Source: an uncultured Clostridia bacterium (GTDB lineage Bacteria; Bacillota; Clostridia; Christensenellales; Borkfalkiaceae). From it: a stretch of DNA of 39,970 nt. The stretch spans positions 1 through 39,970 of the forward strand of contig CALVUC010000012.1 of the NCBI GenBank assembly GCA_944363395.1, given 5' to 3'. Under the pieces are notes generated by a model. The model worked only from the letters and a program-made list of their open reading frames with translations, had not been told where the DNA came from and ran no database searches. A program made the position numbers and the translations under genes. The first letter of the stretch is position 1, and each line of letters starts with the position of its first letter. Positions 17,301 through 25,285 of this stretch are shown one piece after another.

Positions 17301-19484
17301 TTATGCCTGCGGCTTTTCCTCCGTCAGAAGGATGAGCCTGTGCGAAAACTCGGGGAAGCACTCGCGCGAAAGGTTGAGCCCCACGCGCATATAATATTCG
17401 CCCGTATGGACGCAGCCGTCCAGCGTGTTGAAGTAGGACGCGTCCTCCCGCAGCCCGCGCAGCCTGACAAAGCGGAACTCGTCCTGCTCCTTCAACTTGT
17501 TCATGAAGAGCACGAGGGAAGCGGACATGTCCTGCGAAACGCACTGCATACACATCTCGTTCCCCGCGTGCGGCGCGAGAAGATGGTAGAGCGTCCCGCG
17601 CTCGATGACGTCGCCGTGATATTTTTTGTAGATCTCCGCGTGGCGCACGAGCATGGAGACCTCCTCCTCGGTGAGCGTGCCGGGATCCATCTCATAGCCG
17701 TAGGTACCGAACAGCGCGAGCGCCGCCTTGGTATCGTAAGGGGCGACGCGGCTGTCGTTGACGTGCGAGCCGATGCAGGAGAGCGGATAGCCGAGCGAAG
17801 TATTGAACTGGATATCGATGCGCTGCGCGGGATCAGACTCGTCCGAGCACCAGATCTGCGGGCAGTAGAAGAGCGTGCCGAGATCGAAGCGTCCCCCGCC
17901 CGAAGCGCAGCCCTCGATCATGATCTCAGGATGTTCGCGGGCGATCCTTCCGATCAGCGAATAATAACCGAGCACGAGGCGGTGATACACCTCCCCCTGC
18001 CTGTCGGGCAGCGCGCGGGAGACGTGCTCGGAGACCGTGCGGTTATAGTCCCACTTGATGTAGTCGACGGGATACTCCTCCAAGAACTCGTTCATCTGCG
18101 CATAGATGCAGGCGGGAACGGCGGGATTTGCAAAATCGAGATGGCACTGATGGCGCATGAGCGAGAGCTCGTCCTCGCCCCAGCCGAGGACATACTCGGG
18201 ATGCGCGCGGAAGAGGTCGCTGTCGGGGTTGATCATTTCGGGCTCGAACCAGATGCCGAACTTGACGCCGCGCTCGTGGCAGGCGTCGATGACGCGCCTT
18301 AGATCGATCTTCTTCGCGTTGACCTTCCAGTCGCCCAGCCCCGCGAGGTCGGAGTCGCGCGCGCCGAACCAGCCGTCGTCCAGCACAAAGAGCTCCGCGC
18401 CGATCTTGCAGGCGGCGTCGAGATAGGAGAGGATGAGGTCGGTATCGAAGTGGAAAGTGCACCCCTCCCACGAATTGAACAGCACGGGCTTGTAGACGTC
18501 GTTCGCGCGATAGGTCATGACGTTCTCGCGCACAAAGCGGTGGAAGGTCTGCGACATCCCGTCGACGCCCTCCGCCGAGTAGACGACGACCGCCTGTGGC
18601 GTCTGGAAATCGTCCCCCGGCTCCAGCGTCCATTCAAAGTCCTCGTCGTTGATGCCGTAGGTGACGTGCAGCCCGCGGAAGGGTCCGACAAAGGTGCGGA
18701 ACTTGAAGTTTCCGCTGTAGATGAGGTTGAAGCCGATGACTTCGCCGCTCGCCGCCGTCGCCGTATGCTCCTTCAAAAAGACGAAGGGATTTTCCTCCGC
18801 AGATGAACGCCCGAGGTTGGAGGAGACTTCCTGCACGCCGTCCAAGACGGCGTTCTCGCAGTAGTCACGCTCCTTCGCCCACCTGCCCTTGAAGTGGACA
18901 AGATCGTAGTCGGCGCGCGGCAGATCGAGCTGCAGGGACATCGCCCGCGTAAGGCGCAGCGTGCCGTCCGTCCCGTTCTCCACGGAGAAACTTTTGACGA
19001 TCGCGTCCTTGTCCGAAAAGATGGTAAGCACGAGATGCGCCCAGATCTCGCGCGTCCTGTCCTTTAACAAAATATCAAGCGTCTCCGCGTTGTCGCCGTG
19101 CGCGTGCGGAAGCCCTTCGAGCGCAGGCGCGCCCTCCTCGACGGTATAACTGTGATAGCGGAAATCGGTCACATACGAACCCGTGCCGTCGCGCACGACG
19201 AGCGGCGCGCCGCGTTTGTCGGAGAGCCCGTGCGGCGAAAGTTCAAGCGGCGCGCACTCCGCCTTGAACCCGTCGCCGTACGCGACGTCCTCTCCGCTCG
19301 GGACGAGATAGCGCCGCGACGCGAATACGCCCGTATCACGCATACAGGTAAAGTCGTCGTACCGCTCCATCCGCTTGCCGAAATACAAGGTCTCCAGATA
19401 ACCGGCATCGTTCACATAGACGGCATAGCCGATGCTGCCGTTGTCGAGTACAAAGAGGCGGGAATCGCTGTCAAATGAGATCAT
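17301..19484 (-). CDS. Alpha-galactosidase, glycoside hydrolase family 36
   Basis: 727 residues, normal for bacterial GH36 enzymes, which release alpha-1,6-galactose from melibiose and raffinose-type sugars. Catalytic residues are visible: nucleophile Asp479 in YIKWDYNR and acid/base Asp548 in CSDESDP. Substrate-pocket motifs FVLDDGWFG (about 366-374), GIWFEPEMI and CASGGGRFDLG are intact. There is no signal peptide, so it is cytoplasmic and needs an uptake system, presumably the MFS permease downstream. Start has GGAGG 5 nt upstream. Confidence 0.95.
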   Translation of the reverse strand: MISFDSDSRLFVLDNGSIGYAVYVNDAGYLETLYFGKRMERYDDFTCMRDTGVFASRRYLVPSGEDVAYGDGFKAECAPLELSPHGLSDKRGAPLVVRDGTGSYVTDFRYHSYTVEEGAPALEGLPHAHGDNAETLDILLKDRTREIWAHLVLTIFSDKDAIVKSFSVENGTDGTLRLTRAMSLQLDLPRADYDLVHFKGRWAKERDYCENAVLDGVQEVSSNLGRSSAEENPFVFLKEHTATAASGEVIGFNLIYSGNFKFRTFVGPFRGLHVTYGINDEDFEWTLEPGDDFQTPQAVVVYSAEGVDGMSQTFHRFVRENVMTYRANDVYKPVLFNSWEGCTFHFDTDLILSYLDAACKIGAELFVLDDGWFGARDSDLAGLGDWKVNAKKIDLRRVIDACHERGVKFGIWFEPEMINPDSDLFRAHPEYVLGWGEDELSLMRHQCHLDFANPAVPACIYAQMNEFLEEYPVDYIKWDYNRTVSEHVSRALPDRQGEVYHRLVLGYYSLIGRIAREHPEIMIEGCASGGGRFDLGTLFYCPQIWCSDESDPAQRIDIQFNTSLGYPLSCIGSHVNDSRVAPYDTKAALALFGTYGYEMDPGTLTEEEVSMLVRHAEIYKKYHGDVIERGTLYHLLAPHAGNEMCMQCVSQDMSASLVLFMNKLKEQDEFRFVRLRGLREDASYFNTLDGCVHTGEYYMRVGLNLSRECFPEFSHRLILLTEEKPQA

Positions 19485-19531
19485 ATTTTCCTCCGGAAAT
19501 GTGCCGCGCGGGAAGGGCGCAGATTGCTACG

Positions 19532-19560
19532 ATTATAGCCTATTTCCGCGACGGATGCAA
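19532..19560 (-). promoter_or_regulatory. Promoter of the alpha-galactosidase operon
   Basis: TTGCAT at 19555-19560, 17-nt spacer, TATAAT at 19532-19537 on the minus strand; start near 19525 gives a leader of about 40 nt with GGAGG before the ATG. Confidence 0.75.
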
Positions 19561-19706
19561 GCATCTTTCTCCATTTTCATAAGAGAATCGGATGCAGGCA
19601 TAAAAGAGTGTTCGTCGCTCAGAAAAATGAAATCGGCAAGATGTACGCACACAACGTCGCCTCGGTCATGAGAAAGGGGACAATATTGCGCAAAAAATGG
19701 ATGAGA

Positions 19707-19770
19707 ACATAGTACTATGTCAGACATATTATATCATTAACATAGTACTATGTGAGACATAATACTATGA
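19707..19770. promoter_or_regulatory. Array of four phased palindromic operator-like sites
   Basis: Two perfect 14-bp palindromes ACATAGTACTATGT at 19707-19720 and 19740-19753, each followed by a degenerate relative (ACATATTATATCAT at 19724-19737; ACATAATACTATGA at 19757-19770). Centres are 17, 16 and 17 bp apart, and the whole is a 33-bp unit repeated twice. On the minus strand CTCACA (19751-19756) and TATAAT (19728-19733), 17 nt apart, form a possible promoter covered by the sites. ATGT-x3-ACAT spacing between sites recalls operators of small winged-helix repressors such as PadR; no regulator gene is in the window. Confidence 0.7.
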
Positions 19771-20522
19771 AAATGCCGATATTTGACCCATTTTTACAAG
19801 AAAGCCCGCTTTTTGCCGCAGCTACGCCCGATCCTTTCAACAGGATAGTCTTTTCGGCGGTCTATGCGGTAAAAGCGCCCGTTTTTGTCCTGAAAACGGC
19901 ATAAAACCCCTCATATCGCGCCGTTTCGCGCTATTTTCCCCTCCCCTCCCACACATACGGGCATCCCTCCTTCTTTCAGGCTTCTTTTTCAATATTTTCT
20001 ATTGATATCATGGCATTTTTCTACGCGATTTCTAAGAAAAACACCCCGCATTTTCCGATCTTTTGCAAAACGGTTTTCGCTCTCAGATCGCGTAGGACGT
20101 TCTTTTTTTGCAGCCTGTTTTTTGTAATATATTATTATGTATTTCGGTCGTCTCGGAGCGGATCGCCCCTCGCACGCGCTCCCCGCCGCAGGCCCCTCTT
20201 ATGCGCCCCCTCTCATCCGAAAGCCGCTCTTCCGGCTGCCCGCAGCATTGCGCCCTCTTTTCTTTTCGGAAATGATACGCTCCTTCGCGCATCGGTGTTT
20301 CGGCACACGGAAAAGAACCTCTTCCCTGCGGCGAGAAAAAAAGCGACCGCCCGAAGGCGCCCGCCCATGCCCTGTATTCCCAATTGTTCCGGCGCTCCCG
20401 CCCGATGGTCGGCGCGCACCGCATCGGCGCCCGAATAAAAAGGCGTCCTGCCATATGGCACGCGCGCAATCGCGGCGCCGCGCCGCAGCCGCACGCCATC
20501 GATCGCACGATATGTCAAATGC
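19771..20522. other. Gene-free stretch
   Basis: About 750 nt with no convincing coding sequence on either strand. A 45-codon frame starts inside the last palindrome (19767-19904, plus) but has no ribosome binding site and no recognisable product. The left third is AT-richer, the right part strongly GC-rich. No known structured RNA was recognised; a U-tailed hairpin lies at 20336-20364. Confidence 0.6.
20336..20364 (-). terminator. Orphan terminator-like hairpin
   Basis: Minus-strand RNA forms GCG-GG-CGCC, a UUCG tetraloop, GGCG-GU-CGC, then seven U (bases 20336-20342). One mismatch in the stem. No gene lies directly upstream on this strand other than the GGGtGRT gene, which has its own terminator. 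Confidence 0.45.
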
Positions 20523-20561
20523 AAAAGCGCCGCCTCTCCACAGGGAGAAGCGGCGCTTTTT
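20523..20561. terminator. Bidirectional terminator after the GGGtGRT gene
   Basis: Stem AAAAGCGCCGC plus CTCTCC paired with GGGAGA and GCGGCGCTTTTT, a long GC stem flanked by A- and T-runs, so it works as an intrinsic terminator in both directions. It lies 16 nt beyond the stop of the GGGtGRT gene. Confidence 0.88.
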
Positions 20562-20577
20562 GTTCTTTAGCCGATAT

Positions 20578-21579
20578 TTACTTGTTCATGCCTTCCTGCA
20601 CTGCGACCGCAACGGCGACCGTAGCGCCGACCATCGGGTTGTTGCCCATGCCGATGAGTCCCATCATCTCGACGTGCGCAGGGACGGAGGAGGAACCCGC
20701 GAACTGCGCGTCCGAGTGCATTCTGCCCATCGTATCCGTCATGCCGTAGGACGAAGGACCTGCCGCCATATTGTCGGGGTGCAGCGTTCTGCCCGTACCG
20801 CCGCCGGACGCGACCGAGAAGTACTTGAAGCCGTTCTCGACGCACCACTTCTTATAGGTACCCGCAACGGGATGCTGGAAGCGCGTGGGGTTGGTGGAGT
20901 TGCCCGTAATGGAGACACCGACCTTCTCGAGCTTCATGACGGCAACGCCTTCGGGAACGTTGTCCACGCCGTAGCACTTGACCTTGGAGCGGGGGCCGTC
21001 CGAATAAGGCACTTCCTTGGTGACGGTGACCGTCTCGGTATAGGGATCGAACACCGTTTCGACATAGGTGAATCCGTTGATACGCGAGATGATGAACGCC
21101 GCGTCCTTGCCGAGCCCGTTCAGGATGACGCGCAGGGGATTTTTACGGACTTTATTCGCGTTCATGGCGATGGAGATCGCACCTTCCGCAGCCGCAAAGG
21201 ACTCATGTCCCGCGAGGAAACAGAAGCAGTCCGTCTCCTCGGAAAGGAGCATCTTGCCGAGGTTGCCGTGTCCGAGACCGACCTTTCTGTTCTCGGCGAC
21301 CGAACCGGGGATGCAGAACGCCTGCAGACCGATGCCGATCGCAGCCGCCGCATCGGCAGCCTTGGTGCAGCCCGACTTGATGGCGATCGCCGCGCCTACG
21401 GTGTACGCCCAGACCGCGTTTTCAAAGCAGATGGGCTGCGTGCCGCGCACGATCTTGTCGCAATCGACGCCCTTGGAAAGGCAGATCTCTTTGCACTCTT
21501 CGACGGAGGAAATGCCGTACTCTTTGAGGACGCCGTTGATCTTATCGATCCTCCTCTCATATCCTTCAAACAAAGCCAT
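20578..21579 (-). CDS. GGGtGRT-family protein, function unknown
   Basis: 333 residues; the motif GGGTGRT at 259-265 and overall sequence match the uncharacterised family I know by the name GGGtGRT protein. It has nine cysteines (33, 40, 51, 71, 89, 118, 120, 202, 246) and many glycine/alanine-rich stretches (VGAAIAIKSGCTKAADAAAAIGIGL; NPMVGATVAVAVAVQEG near the end) but no convincing membrane segment or signal peptide. It lies 13 nt after the NifU-like gene with its own GGAGG, so the two are one operon. Linkage to a scaffold-like protein suggests metal or iron-sulfur chemistry, which is inference. Confidence 0.88.
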   Translation of the reverse strand: MALFEGYERRIDKINGVLKEYGISSVEECKEICLSKGVDCDKIVRGTQPICFENAVWAYTVGAAIAIKSGCTKAADAAAAIGIGLQAFCIPGSVAENRKVGLGHGNLGKMLLSEETDCFCFLAGHESFAAAEGAISIAMNANKVRKNPLRVILNGLGKDAAFIISRINGFTYVETVFDPYTETVTVTKEVPYSDGPRSKVKCYGVDNVPEGVAVMKLEKVGVSITGNSTNPTRFQHPVAGTYKKWCVENGFKYFSVASGGGTGRTLHPDNMAAGPSSYGMTDTMGRMHSDAQFAGSSSVPAHVEMMGLIGMGNNPMVGATVAVAVAVQEGMNK

Positions 21580-21592
21580 ACCCTTTCCCTCC

Positions 21593-22294
21593 TTACTCTT
21601 TGCGAGGGTCGATGTACTTCACCGCACCCTGCTCTTCCGAAAATCTGCCGTAGTGACCCATCGCCTTGGTCCATGCCTCGTTGGGCTCCAGACCCTTCTT
21701 GATGAAGTCGGTCATCTTGCCGAGGGAGACGAACTCATAGCCGATGACCTGGTTGTCCTTATCCAGCGCGAGGCGGGTGACATAGCCTTCCGCCATCTCG
21801 AGGTATCTCACGCCCTTGAGCGCCGTGCCGTACATCGTGCCGACCTGCGAACGGAGCCCCTTGCCGAGGTCCTCAAGTCCCGCGCCAATGGTAAGCCCGT
21901 CGTCCGAGAACGCCGACTGCGTTCTGCCGTAGACGATCTGCAGGAACAGCTCGCGCATCGCGGTGTTGATCGCGTCGCAAACGAGGTCGGTATTGAGCGC
22001 TTCGAGAATGGTCTTGTGGGGCAGGATCTCCGCCGCCATTGCCGCCGAGTGCGTCATGCCGGAGCAGCCGATCGTCTCGACGAGCGCTTCCTGAATGACG
22101 CCTTCCTTGACGTTGAGGCTGAGCTTGCAGGCGCCCTGCTGAGGCGCGCACCAGCCAATGCCGTGCGTAAAGCCGCTGATGTCCGTGATCTGCTTGGCGC
22201 AAACCCATTTTCCCTCTTCGGGAATGGGCGCGGGATCGTGTTTCGGTCCCTTTGCGACGCAGATCATCTCTTCCACTTCGCGTGAATATTGCAT
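21593..22294 (-). CDS. NifU/IscU-like iron-sulfur scaffold homologue
   Basis: 233 residues. The segment GWCAPQQGACKLSLNV (47-62) followed by ETIGCSGMTHSAAMAAEIL (73-91) resembles the NifU/IscU N-domain, in which cysteines hold a nascent Fe-S cluster; Cys49, Cys56, Cys77 and Cys106 are the candidates. It is longer than IscU or SufU (about 125-150) by an N-terminal segment and a C-terminal region of about 90 residues. The start at 22294 is set by GGAGG 7 nt upstream; the frame is open a little further. Paired with the GGGtGRT protein. Probably not a general housekeeping scaffold. Confidence 0.85.
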   Translation of the reverse strand: MQYSREVEEMICVAKGPKHDPAPIPEEGKWVCAKQITDISGFTHGIGWCAPQQGACKLSLNVKEGVIQEALVETIGCSGMTHSAAMAAEILPHKTILEALNTDLVCDAINTAMRELFLQIVYGRTQSAFSDDGLTIGAGLEDLGKGLRSQVGTMYGTALKGVRYLEMAEGYVTRLALDKDNQVIGYEFVSLGKMTDFIKKGLEPNEAWTKAMGHYGRFSEEQGAVKYIDPRKE

Positions 22295-22346
22295 CTTGTA
22301 TCCTCCATAAAATACTTTTGCCCTGTAACGGGAACCTTTCTGCAAT

Positions 22347-22375
22347 ATTCTACCATATTTTCAGCGAAAATACAA
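22347..22375 (-). promoter_or_regulatory. Promoter of the NifU-like/GGGtGRT operon
   Basis: TTGTAT at 22370-22375, 17-nt spacer, TAGAAT at 22347-22352 on the minus strand. Start near 22340, leader about 45 nt. A 15-bp palindrome TTCCCGCCGCGGGAA (22392-22406) lies between this and the divergent lipoprotein promoter. Confidence 0.65.
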
Positions 22376-22446
22376 GAGGTTGTCTGCAAATTTCCCGCCG
22401 CGGGAACGCTTTTTTTGCCGCCCGCCGAGCAATTTTTATCAAAGTA

Positions 22447-22475
22447 TTGACAATACATTTGTTTCGATCTATAAT
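22447..22475 (+). promoter_or_regulatory. Consensus promoter of the lipoprotein gene
   Basis: TTGACA at 22447-22452, 17-nt spacer, TATAAT at 22470-22475: a perfect sigma-70/sigma-A type consensus. Start near 22482; AAAGGAGAGG precedes the ATG. Confidence 0.9.
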
Positions 22476-22501
22476 AAAATAAACTTGAAAGGAGAGGATT
22501 T

Positions 22502-23419
22502 ATGAAAAAATATTCGGCAAAGAAATGCCTTGCGCTCTGCGCCGCTCTGGCGCTCGGCGTCACGCTGACGGGCTGCGCGCCGTCCGCCGTCATCAAGGGA
22601 AATTACCGCACGCCCACCGAGGAGGAACTTACCGCGGCGCTGAACGCCGTCGACCCGGAACAACTGTTTGCGGAGGATCCCACCCTCTCGCTGCGGCAGG
22701 AGTTTTCCGTCGATATGAGCGCTCCGGACGGCACCTTCTTTTTTGAGAGCAAGGGAACATACGACATTCAGATGCAGGGCGAAACGAGCATCGGCGCGGG
22801 AGATCTCGAACTGCGCGCCTCGAGCACGGGCGAAGAGATCGCGGTGGGGGCGCTCACGGGGGACTTCTATCACGACGGGGACTGTTTGTATATGGACGTC
22901 CTGGACGGAAACGAGTCCTATCGGGGAAAGATCCCCCTTACCGAACTGTCCGCGCTGCTGGAAGAATATTTAGAGTATCTGCAGACGGGGACCGCCGTTC
23001 CCCTCATCGCGGGCTCCGGTCATGGCGGCTCCGAAATCTCCCCCGACCTGCAGACGATGTTCTCCGTCGGGCTGGACGACGGCGACGGCATCAAACTCAA
23101 ACTTGCCGCAAACGACAGCTTTTTTACCACGATCGAGGAGAGCGTCACGGGTGGATCGGACGCGATCGAATTCTCCTTCCGCAGCAAGATCCTGGAACTG
23201 TATCTCTCCATCGACGGCGACGGGAGATTTGAACAGCTCTCCGCGCGCATCGACCTCGCATACGAGGCGTCGTATGAGGGACAATCGCTCGAAATGCGTG
23301 CCAAAGGCGAATTTATCCTCCGTACCGGGAATGCCGCAGTCAGGCTCCCGGACGAACTCTCCGACGAGGAAGAATATCCCTTCTTCACGGATAACGGCTT
23401 CCTCCCGTCGCCCATGTAG
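22502..23419 (+). CDS. Predicted lipoprotein, function unknown
   Basis: 305 residues. The first 25 form a lipoprotein signal: basic MKKYSAKK, a hydrophobic core and lipobox Leu-Thr-Gly-Cys with Cys25 as the lipidation site. The mature part is acidic and beta-rich (repeated short strands such as GTYDIQMQGETSIGAGDLELRAS and IKLKLAANDSFF), consistent with an outer-face cell-surface domain. I do not recognise the family. Monocistronic, from a perfect consensus promoter, so probably well expressed. Confidence 0.88.
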   Translation: MKKYSAKKCLALCAALALGVTLTGCAPSAVIKGNYRTPTEEELTAALNAVDPEQLFAEDPTLSLRQEFSVDMSAPDGTFFFESKGTYDIQMQGETSIGAGDLELRASSTGEEIAVGALTGDFYHDGDCLYMDVLDGNESYRGKIPLTELSALLEEYLEYLQTGTAVPLIAGSGHGGSEISPDLQTMFSVGLDDGDGIKLKLAANDSFFTTIEESVTGGSDAIEFSFRSKILELYLSIDGDGRFEQLSARIDLAYEASYEGQSLEMRAKGEFILRTGNAAVRLPDELSDEEEYPFFTDNGFLPSPM

Positions 23420-23448
23420 TGCGCAGGCGGGACGCAATTCCTTCATAA

Positions 23449-23490
23449 GGGCGCAGCGGCGGCGGGCATATGCCCGCCGCCGCTGCGCCC
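23449..23490. terminator. Perfect 42-nt palindrome between convergent genes
   Basis: A 21-bp perfect inverted repeat with no spacer (centre CATATG), arms GGGCGCAGCGGCGGCGGGCAT. It lies between the lipoprotein gene and yhbY, which converge. It lacks a strong T-run but its position suggests bidirectional termination or transcript-end protection. Confidence 0.7.
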
Positions 23491-23496
23491 CATCCT

Positions 23497-23802
23497 TTAC
23501 AGTTGGATGTGTTCGAAATTTTCGCGCGAGGAACGGCGATAGAAGATCGCCTTCCTGCCGATGACCGCGACGACTTCCGCCCCCAGCAGGTCTGCGGCGT
23601 TCTGCGCCATCGTGTCGGCGTCCGCCTCGGCGTTCGGGAGCACGTTCACCTTGATGATCTCGCGCGCCTCCAGTGCCTCGGAGAGCGTCTTTAAGAGGTT
23701 GTCCGTAATGCCGCCCTTTCCGATCTGCGTGACGGGATCGAGGTTGGCTGCGATCGACTTTAACTTGCTTCTCTGTTTGCTTGTCATATCCTTTCCGGGC
23801 AA
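23497..23802 (-). CDS. yhbY: YhbY/CRS1-domain RNA-binding protein
   Basis: 101 residues; the CRM-domain pattern LDPVTQIGKGGITDNLLKTLSEALEAREIIKVNVL with the GKGG loop is clear. Homologues bind 50S precursors in ribosome assembly. Start choice: a TTG at 23802 has AAGGAG 6 nt upstream, whereas the ATG at 23787, where homologues usually begin (MTSKQRSKLK), has its purine-rich stretch only 1-2 nt away. TTG is therefore preferred, adding five residues. Follows the unknown gene by 10 nt and obg further upstream, a common obg-yhbY neighbourhood. Confidence 0.92.
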   Translation of the reverse strand: MPGKDMTSKQRSKLKSIAANLDPVTQIGKGGITDNLLKTLSEALEAREIIKVNVLPNAEADADTMAQNAADLLGAEVVAVIGRKAIFYRRSSRENFEHIQL

Positions 23803-23812
23803 TGCCCGCTCC

Positions 23813-25285
23813 TTATGTATTATCCTGTGCGGGAAGAAGATCGTACCCGCATTGATACACCATCACGCCCTGCGCGCTCACAAAGACTACTTTGGCGTCA
23901 TAGGCACGCAGCACGGGCGCAAGGATGCGCAGCGTGCGGTGGAACGCCTTCTCGTCCGCGAGCAGCATATCGAGAAAGAAGCACCCCTCCCCGAAGGCAA
24001 AACCCAGATTGATCGCCGAAGCGACGTCCTCGCCCTCTCTGCGGACAGGGGCGTCCTTGCTGTTCTGCAGATGCCACATGAGCACGCGCAGCGCCTCCTC
24101 ATCCCCCTGCGCCTCGCGCGGGACATAGAGATAGGCAAACGCCCCGAACGCCGTCCACCACGGCACCTCGCCTTCGAGCGCCGTACGGTCGATGAGCGAG
24201 ACGTCGGGCGACTGCGTGAAGCCCTCCTGCAGCCTTTCGCGGTAGGGAAGCTGCTGCGCGGCGTCCTCGCCGTTGTAGCCGTAGGCAACGGCGTAGGGAG
24301 ACGCCTCCGTCCCGTCGCCGCCGAAATTCTCGATAAACGCCTGCGCCGACGCGGCGAGTTTTTTTGCGATCGCCTTGCGCGGCATGAGCCCCGCCTGCGC
24401 ATCGAACTCCACGCTCCCGATGGCGCACAGTGCCTCGTATTCGCCGATATCCTCCGCCATGCAGGCATAGAAGTCGTCCAGACGCGCCTCGTTCTCCTCC
24501 TCTTTGCAGGGGGGAAGATGGACGACGACGCGCCCCGCCTCCGCTTCCTCGACATAGCCCATCTTCTTTTCATCGAAGAACGCGCTCTTGTGCGGGAGCA
24601 GCCCCGCGGGGAGCTGATAGCGCACCGTCCAGCCCGCCGCCGGCAGGGGCGAGGAGACCATGGCGCACTCTGCAAGATAGCGCTCCGCCGCATAGGAGAC
24701 GGGAGAGGTGCGCCAGTCGCCGTGCACATACAGGCAGTACCTGCCGTCCCGCACCGTGCCGAAGAAGTTGAGCGGCACATAGAACCGCTCCAGATCTTCG
24801 TTGAGGATGGCGTTGAGCCGCTGCATATCGCCCCCGTCGATGCAGGCGGCGAGTTCGTTGAGGCGCTCCGCCATGCGGTGCCAGAAGAACCATACGCAGA
24901 AGCCGAAGCTCCACGGCTCGTCCTTGTCTTCGCGCAAAAAGCAGACGCCGTCCAGCGACATTTCCGAATGAAAGCCCTCGAAGCCGTCGTCATCGGTATA
25001 GCGGACGCAGCCGGGGCAGATGCGGTCGACGTGCTTTCCGAGAATGGCGTCGTACTCGGCGCCCGTGTAGAGATTGACGCGCACTTCAAAGAGAAGGGCG
25101 GGGTCCTCGATGGTGACGACGGCGTCCTCCATGCTCTCGTAGATGAAGTCGGGCGCCATGCAGCGCTCCTCTTTCAGGCGTTTGACCTCCACCCTTCCCG
25201 CAGCGGCGAGGTCGGAAAGCTCCATCCCCTCGGGAAAAAGATAGTATTGAAACCGATAAAAAAATGCGCGGATCCCCTGTTCCAT
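23813..25285 (-). CDS. Uncharacterised 490-residue protein between obg and yhbY
   Basis: I do not recognise a family. It is acidic, has no signal peptide or membrane helix, and is rich in aromatic residues (WSFGFCVWFFWHRM near 125-140). It begins MEQGIRAFFYRFQYYLFPEG and carries scattered cysteines (RICPGCVRY near 90) without a clear metal motif. Start preceded by GGAGG. It lies 21 nt after obg and 10 nt before yhbY, so it is almost certainly co-transcribed with both and may act in translation or stress responses; this is context only. Confidence 0.85.
   Translation of the reverse strand: MEQGIRAFFYRFQYYLFPEGMELSDLAAAGRVEVKRLKEERCMAPDFIYESMEDAVVTIEDPALLFEVRVNLYTGAEYDAILGKHVDRICPGCVRYTDDDGFEGFHSEMSLDGVCFLREDKDEPWSFGFCVWFFWHRMAERLNELAACIDGGDMQRLNAILNEDLERFYVPLNFFGTVRDGRYCLYVHGDWRTSPVSYAAERYLAECAMVSSPLPAAGWTVRYQLPAGLLPHKSAFFDEKKMGYVEEAEAGRVVVHLPPCKEEENEARLDDFYACMAEDIGEYEALCAIGSVEFDAQAGLMPRKAIAKKLAASAQAFIENFGGDGTEASPYAVAYGYNGEDAAQQLPYRERLQEGFTQSPDVSLIDRTALEGEVPWWTAFGAFAYLYVPREAQGDEEALRVLMWHLQNSKDAPVRREGEDVASAINLGFAFGEGCFFLDMLLADEKAFHRTLRILAPVLRAYDAKVVFVSAQGVMVYQCGYDLLPAQDNT

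Follow-up and report, generated by a model that had tools for sequence, protein, structure and literature searches.

The window, that is, the whole 39,970-nucleotide stretch of contig CALVUC010000012.1 from an uncultured Clostridia bacterium (assembly GCA_944363395.1), contains a NifU-like gene followed directly by a gene of the GGGtGRT family (PF14057), and these form a real, conserved two-gene unit. A NifU-like/GGGtGRT two-gene system had been proposed from the letters of the window (hereafter the sequence-only reading), and both genes are present on the minus strand where it placed them, the second being a full-length member of PF14057 (644.6 bits against a cut-off of 27, covering 326 of 327 positions). 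The pair probably forms one iron-dependent unit, because the genes recur side by side and are expressed under ample iron. The features of the pair are as follows.

22294-21593, minus strand: NifU-like gene with a predicted IscU fold, 233 amino acids, first gene of the pair (hereafter the scaffold).
21580..21592, minus strand: intergenic gap of 13 bp, within reach of the ribosome-binding site of the GGGtGRT gene.
21579-20578, minus strand: GGGtGRT gene (PF14057), 333 amino acids, second gene of the pair.
22301..22306, minus strand: ribosome-binding site GGAGGA of the NifU-like gene, read directly from the sequence.

The scaffold start was set at the ATG at 22294, where the homologue alignment begins; the mechanical list of open reading frames (ORFs) has a TTG at 22345.

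Pairing was counted in 398 genomes drawn from the window's phylum, the window's own genome included. GGGtGRT occurs in 29 of them, at 30 places, and a scaffold profile scores at least 300 bits at 30 places, in exactly these 29 genomes, the next-best match reaching 32.5 bits. At all 30 loci the scaffold gene lies next to GGGtGRT, in an unchanged order, which supports the earlier claim that the two are coupled and shows the pair to be conserved in relatives. One of these loci (L016 in genome G341, about 1088-2481) has the only broken scaffold of the 30, with its C-terminal part and the first GGGtGRT residues missing at a single junction and the rest of GGGtGRT remaining open. Adjacency also holds for 77 of the best 80 named-genome loci (the three exceptions start 0-120 bp from a contig end) and for 37 of another 38 loci, from other phyla, the last being cut by a contig end. 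Three of these 38 belong to genomes already counted through named loci, and one, L204, has a gap of 423 bp. Pairwise distances of the scaffold and GGGtGRT correlate at 0.80 over 104 loci (maximum of 1000 permutations, 0.19), which indicates joint inheritance more than contact, since linked genes share ancestry. Both genes are under purifying selection, with dN/dS of 0.05-0.14 across the six comparisons that were computable for each gene (the one with L050 was not). Genome G207 has two pairs (L024 and L030), and its second GGGtGRT is only 60% identical to that of the window.

Clustering of ORFs in the neighborhoods of 88 loci (786 kb, some shortened by contig ends) revealed no third conserved gene; only the two genes of the pair recur. 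The third-ranked cluster, in 31 of the 88 loci, is an antisense ORF of GGGtGRT, and all others occur in at most nine. In the window, antisense ORFs cover the pair on the plus strand at 20137-21702 (521 amino acids) and 21068-22285 (405 amino acids); they are most likely by-products of the coding strand and not genes. An additional 63-amino-acid ORF lies between the pair genes in Parabacteroides distasonis (L133:5800-5991), with a nitroreductase gene just downstream.

The absence of standard iron-sulfur (Fe-S) assembly genes beside the pair bears on two alternative explanations. Queries with SufB, SufD, SufS, SufU, and IscU gave no match alongside it in 87 of the 88 loci, in agreement with the earlier statement that the pair stands apart from isc and suf genes. 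The ORF picking used for clustering was crude and dropped the Collinsella sufU, and the question was repeated by tblastn on DNA with the same outcome. In that search IscU queries detected scaffold DNA directly (E down to about 2e-6), and outside Collinsella the IscU and SufU queries matched solely the pair's own scaffold. The remaining locus is that of Collinsella aerofaciens (L134:1-3361), in which sufB (cut), sufD, sufS, and sufU lie ahead of the pair and a transposase gene separates them from it. This arrangement favors a dedicated Fe-S assembly or delivery system, with the scaffold as cluster builder and GGGtGRT as its partner, chaperone, or only client, whereas the other 87 loci speak against such a system. 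The lack of a nearby SufS-type desulfurase gene in the same 87 loci likewise counts against the pair being a sulfur (persulfide) or zinc-dependent SufU-like carrier with GGGtGRT as sulfur acceptor and no cluster; such a carrier would not by itself explain the iron response described below, and we regard it as very improbable. The minimal Fe-S systems MIS and SMS are, like the pair, small gene sets, and MIS also includes a U-type scaffold. However, MIS and SMS need desulfurase or SufBC-type proteins, whereas the partner of the scaffold here is GGGtGRT.

The first protein had been described as a cysteine-bearing scaffold homologue with long extra regions, a description consistent with its predicted structure, an IscU fold with a U-type alpha/beta domain at approximately residues 25-128, and with a C-terminal extension of about 100 residues (approximately 130-233) without a Pfam match. 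Cysteines C49, C77, and C106 are kept in 143 of 143 sequences, as the sequence-only reading would require of its scaffold, and H44 is also invariant; the alignments of both proteins are shallow, with an effective sequence number (Neff) under 2. The predicted U fold, the three invariant cysteines, and the position of C77, which aligns with the second IscU cysteine in a profile alignment with 30 canonical proteins, liken the scaffold to IscU, the N-terminal domain of NifU, and SufU. The fold and the cysteines speak for an assembly system. Unlike these proteins, however, the scaffold has Gln53 in the first-cysteine column, with C49 four residues earlier, and a gap facing the metal-site aspartate of IscU (two residues after the first cysteine), the loss of which argues against assembly. 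C106 lies past residue 102, the last one covered by the local profile alignment, and the residue immediately before C106 is V105, not His, in 143 of 143 sequences. The C-terminal extension and the lack of an adjoining desulfurase gene further separate the scaffold from the canonical proteins, as do its scores: 16.9 bits against Pfam NifU_N (PF01592; cut-off 22) and, against the NCBIfam equivalog cut-offs, 19.8 versus 187.9 bits for NifU, 16.9 versus 192.4 for IscU, and 13.8 versus 92.5 for SufU. Its homologues all match NifU_N weakly as well, in two alignments (48 of 48, best E 6.7e-5; 32 of 32, best E 3.3e-5). Databases name this protein "nitrogen-fixing protein NifU" or "iron-sulfur cluster assembly scaffold protein"; despite the former name, the analyzed material holds no sign of a role in nitrogen fixation.

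The second protein is a predicted Rossmann-like alpha/beta protein in which no difference from the rest of PF14057 was found; the Pfam entry line of that family states no function. It had been introduced as a cysteine-rich protein, with a cysteine-based role implied, yet none of its 10 cysteines is invariant among 147 sequences, and GGGtGRT as a cysteine-based Fe-S protein is ruled out by this count. The invariant polar residues include H104, H125, E126, K158, D159, H236, R264, D269, D282, and H302; such a number is probably more than an iron store would need, a possibility taken up below. A G-L-G-K-D-A motif lies at 155-160 and the GGGTGRT motif at 259-265. Residues G155, G157, and A160 are found in 147 of 147 sequences and D178 in 143 of 147. 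The strand-GLGKDA-helix-strand segment with D178 at its end resembles Rossmann-fold NAD(P)-binding proteins and fits the dinucleotide fingerprint, G-x-G-x-x-G/A with an acidic residue after strand 2. No single Rossmann NAD(P)-binding family gave a significant match in sequence or structure, and the fold is without a clear relative: SIS-type and short-chain dehydrogenase folds head the structural list, tied, at the level of common arrangements.

A threonine synthase in locus L170 matches GGGtGRT at 19.9 bits, under the family cut-off, and stands above background (profile score 33.9 versus a best of 25.3; 18.1 bits versus a maximum of 5.4). Kinship with threonine synthase (pyridoxal phosphate, PLP, fold type II) is unsupported: seven of eight other threonine synthases or relatives score at most 1.0 bit, with one unreported, and the match is therefore attributed largely to an odd insert of one threonine synthase. 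Homoserine dehydrogenase, tested in the same way, scores 15.0, below at least 8 of 220 background proteins.

Published expression data link the pair to iron. In Bacteroides thetaiotaomicron, BT0173-74 fall 12.8- to 11-fold (-12.8 to -11) under iron depletion, among 444 genes that are down at least 2.5-fold (PMC10434189). In Clostridium pasteurianum, GGGtGRT and the NifU-related protein are both up with iron, the former by 7.1 early and by 2.2 late, the latter by 2.4 and 3.7 in two early spots and by 1.6 and 2.9 late (PMC5395762). In chicken gut anaerobes, GGGtGRT is described as highly expressed in vivo (PMC11204068), and it is reported together with a NifU in rumen and human fecal proteomes (PMC7035244, PMC12014591, PMC13041051); passages of two further papers list it alone (PMC12643325, PMC12101220). 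It is also among the putative virulence hits of Clostridium innocuum (PMC9942572), a role for which the present analysis found no support. No functional study of the pair was found in the literature searched, which excludes most subscription journals. A drop in expression under low iron speaks against an assembly system. It is compatible with an iron or Fe-S store or buffer, a complex that takes up surplus iron and sulfide when iron is plentiful: the pair is high with iron and low without it, it is detected in gut and rumen proteomes, and in iron-depleted B. thetaiotaomicron ferritin falls likewise (PMC10434189). However, the pair has no Pfam match to a known iron store, and together with the conserved polar residues of GGGtGRT this makes storage an improbable explanation.

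The carrier genomes generally encode other scaffolds. NifU_N matches are present in 355 of the 398 phylum genomes, and among the 29 carriers the match is at E 2.5e-40 or better in 13 and at 1e-19 to 1.4e-16 in 14. When the pair's own scaffolds were scanned as proteins, those of the 14 latter genomes among them, the best reached E 3.3e-5, and the strong matches in these 27 carriers must therefore be other genes. The pair is thus, as judged from profile scores, additional to standard Fe-S assembly in most carriers, which counts against a dedicated assembly system, an explanation that is rather unlikely overall, and replacement of the standard scaffold by the pair is rejected in general. The remaining two carriers, in which such a replacement may apply, are genome G270, the sole NifU_N match of which (E 7e-5) is no stronger than that of the pair's own scaffold, and the window's own genome (92.75% complete), in which we found no NifU_N match and one SUFBD-core match. 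Because of this last result, the pair's protein may double as the sole U-type scaffold of the window's own genome, a point that favors assembly and complicates the explanation given next.

We tentatively favor, at somewhat short of even confidence, a two-subunit iron(-sulfur) unit in which the scaffold is a resident carrier and GGGtGRT a catalytic or ligand-binding protein, with an iron-dependent redox or metabolic role. The operon would encode a single unit whose two products form a physical complex. The IscU-fold subunit would be a transient scaffold turned resident carrier of an iron-sulfur (or iron) site, for which C49, C77, and C106 are the most likely ligands and H44 a possible further one. 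GGGtGRT, with its Rossmann-like fold and many invariant polar residues, would be the catalytic or ligand-binding partner and may be nucleotide dependent. Such a unit would be made when iron is available and reduced when it is scarce, like PFOR, hydrogenase, and rubrerythrin, and would not be a general replacement for the ISC/SUF machinery. We prefer this resident unit with a catalytic partner to assembly, storage, or sulfur transfer because of four observations, namely, an iron response like that of iron-consuming enzymes, detection in whole-community proteomes, the much stronger NifU_N match that 27 of 29 carriers have besides, and the lack of a desulfurase gene near the pair in 87 of 88 loci.

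The pair is widely distributed. A scan of species genomes yielded at least 585 confirmed stretches, and the best 80 of these, a choice biased towards the window's relatives, come from Bacillota, Kiritimatiellota, Spirochaetota, Bacteroidota, Verrucomicrobiota, Planctomycetota, and Pseudomonadota. Plasmid-collection records add Collinsella (Actinomycetota), marine Vibrio, and Persicobacter, also with the scaffold before GGGtGRT, and the same gene order is therefore found in at least eight phyla. The "gut anaerobes" of the sequence-only reading are too narrow a description, given the marine Vibrio and Persicobacter. The frequency of GGGtGRT above the family cut-off was determined in genomes from the phylum of each of several relatives, with the starting genome included and phyla inferred from the starting records. 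It is 4 of 180 for the phylum of a Succinivibrio relative (L083), 10 of 140 for that of Spirochaetaceae (L092), 61 of 135 for that of Akkermansia (L112), 3 of 129 for that of Planctomycetia (L120), and 1 of 198, the starting genome alone, for that of Alistipes (L093). Identity to the window shows no steady fall with taxonomic distance: it is 75-79% in seven other carriers of the window's own class, 78-81% in other phyla among the best 80 (a biased choice), and 64-73% in Vibrio, Persicobacter, Collinsella, and three genomes of the phylum of the Succinivibrio relative. A quick tree of 39 rows places Kiritimatiellota within gut Clostridia with starred support, with 16 of its 35 inner forks unresolved. 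Because identity does not track taxonomic distance and Kiritimatiellota fall inside gut Clostridia, these sequence comparisons point to transfer of the pair between phyla. The pair is also present on the IMG/VR contigs L031, L032, L035, and L125, near a contig end in L031, L032, and L125; these occurrences are perhaps host flank rather than viral genes.

The sequence-only reading also gave the pair its own promoter and terminator, and a promoter and a terminator-like hairpin are present.

22370..22375, minus strand: -35 hexamer TTGTAT, starting 81 nucleotides before the scaffold ATG.
22347..22352, minus strand: -10 hexamer TAGAAT, preceded by TG (extended -10).
20523-20560, minus strand: terminator-like hairpin 3' of the GGGtGRT gene, -31.8 kcal/mol, z -5.3, with 0 of 200 shuffles as low.

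The hexamers are separated by a spacer of 17 nucleotides, and the close relatives L042, L043, L045, and L046 have a comparable site that starts 74-80 nucleotides before the start codon. Promoter-like sites scoring at least as high as that of the window are found upstream of 63 of 104 distinct loci, the window included; in 30 sets of dinucleotide shuffles the count averaged 10.2 and never exceeded 16. A generic promoter scan omitted the TTGTAT/TAGAAT site, the first hexamer of which matches at three of six positions. The hairpin has a short T run and is not in the generic scan's list. A perfect palindrome, ATTTTC-agc-GAAAAT, at 22357-22371, between the promoter hexamers and touching the -35, is a candidate operator; by eye, close relatives are only partly similar. 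A search for RNA elements across 19400-23600 found no Rfam family at the gathering threshold.

The pair is flanked in the window by a GH36 alpha-galactosidase gene (17301-19484) and by a divergent gene at 22502-23419, after which come YhbY and Obg. Ribosomal protein genes, secY, and adk lie in the left part of the window. The divergent gene, on the plus strand, is lipoprotein-like by its start sequence, has no Pfam match, and is preceded by a 12-of-12 consensus promoter at 22447-22475. A 490-amino-acid protein without a Pfam match is encoded between yhbY and obg (23813-25285, minus strand). No Fe-S assembly family was found in 25 other ORFs of the window that were scanned (24 of the 80 others of at least 150 amino acids and one shorter).

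The family names (PF14057, "GGGtGRT protein," and the NifU-type names) and the iron response in published tables are already known. The earlier description of an "undescribed metal-cluster system" gains a link to iron from published data, but both families had already been named in databases and listed in expression studies. As far as we found, four results are new: the count across genomes that shows one-to-one pairing, the three invariant cysteines in an altered active site, the finding that no cysteine of GGGtGRT is invariant, and the presence of standard scaffolds alongside the pair. A bolder proposal, which we consider possible and still doubtful, is that the pair represents a new class of two-subunit iron-sulfur enzyme, in which a U-type scaffold is the permanent cluster subunit of a Rossmann-like catalytic protein, encoded by a two-gene cassette that has spread between phyla and belongs to the iron-dependent proteins of gut bacteria. 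The pair matters in that it is strongly conserved, occurs in at least eight phyla, is reported from gut and rumen proteomes, and drops sharply in iron-starved B. thetaiotaomicron. If the scaffold is indeed a resident cluster subunit, an assembly factor would have been turned into part of an enzyme, and a new iron-using function would be named in gut bacteria.
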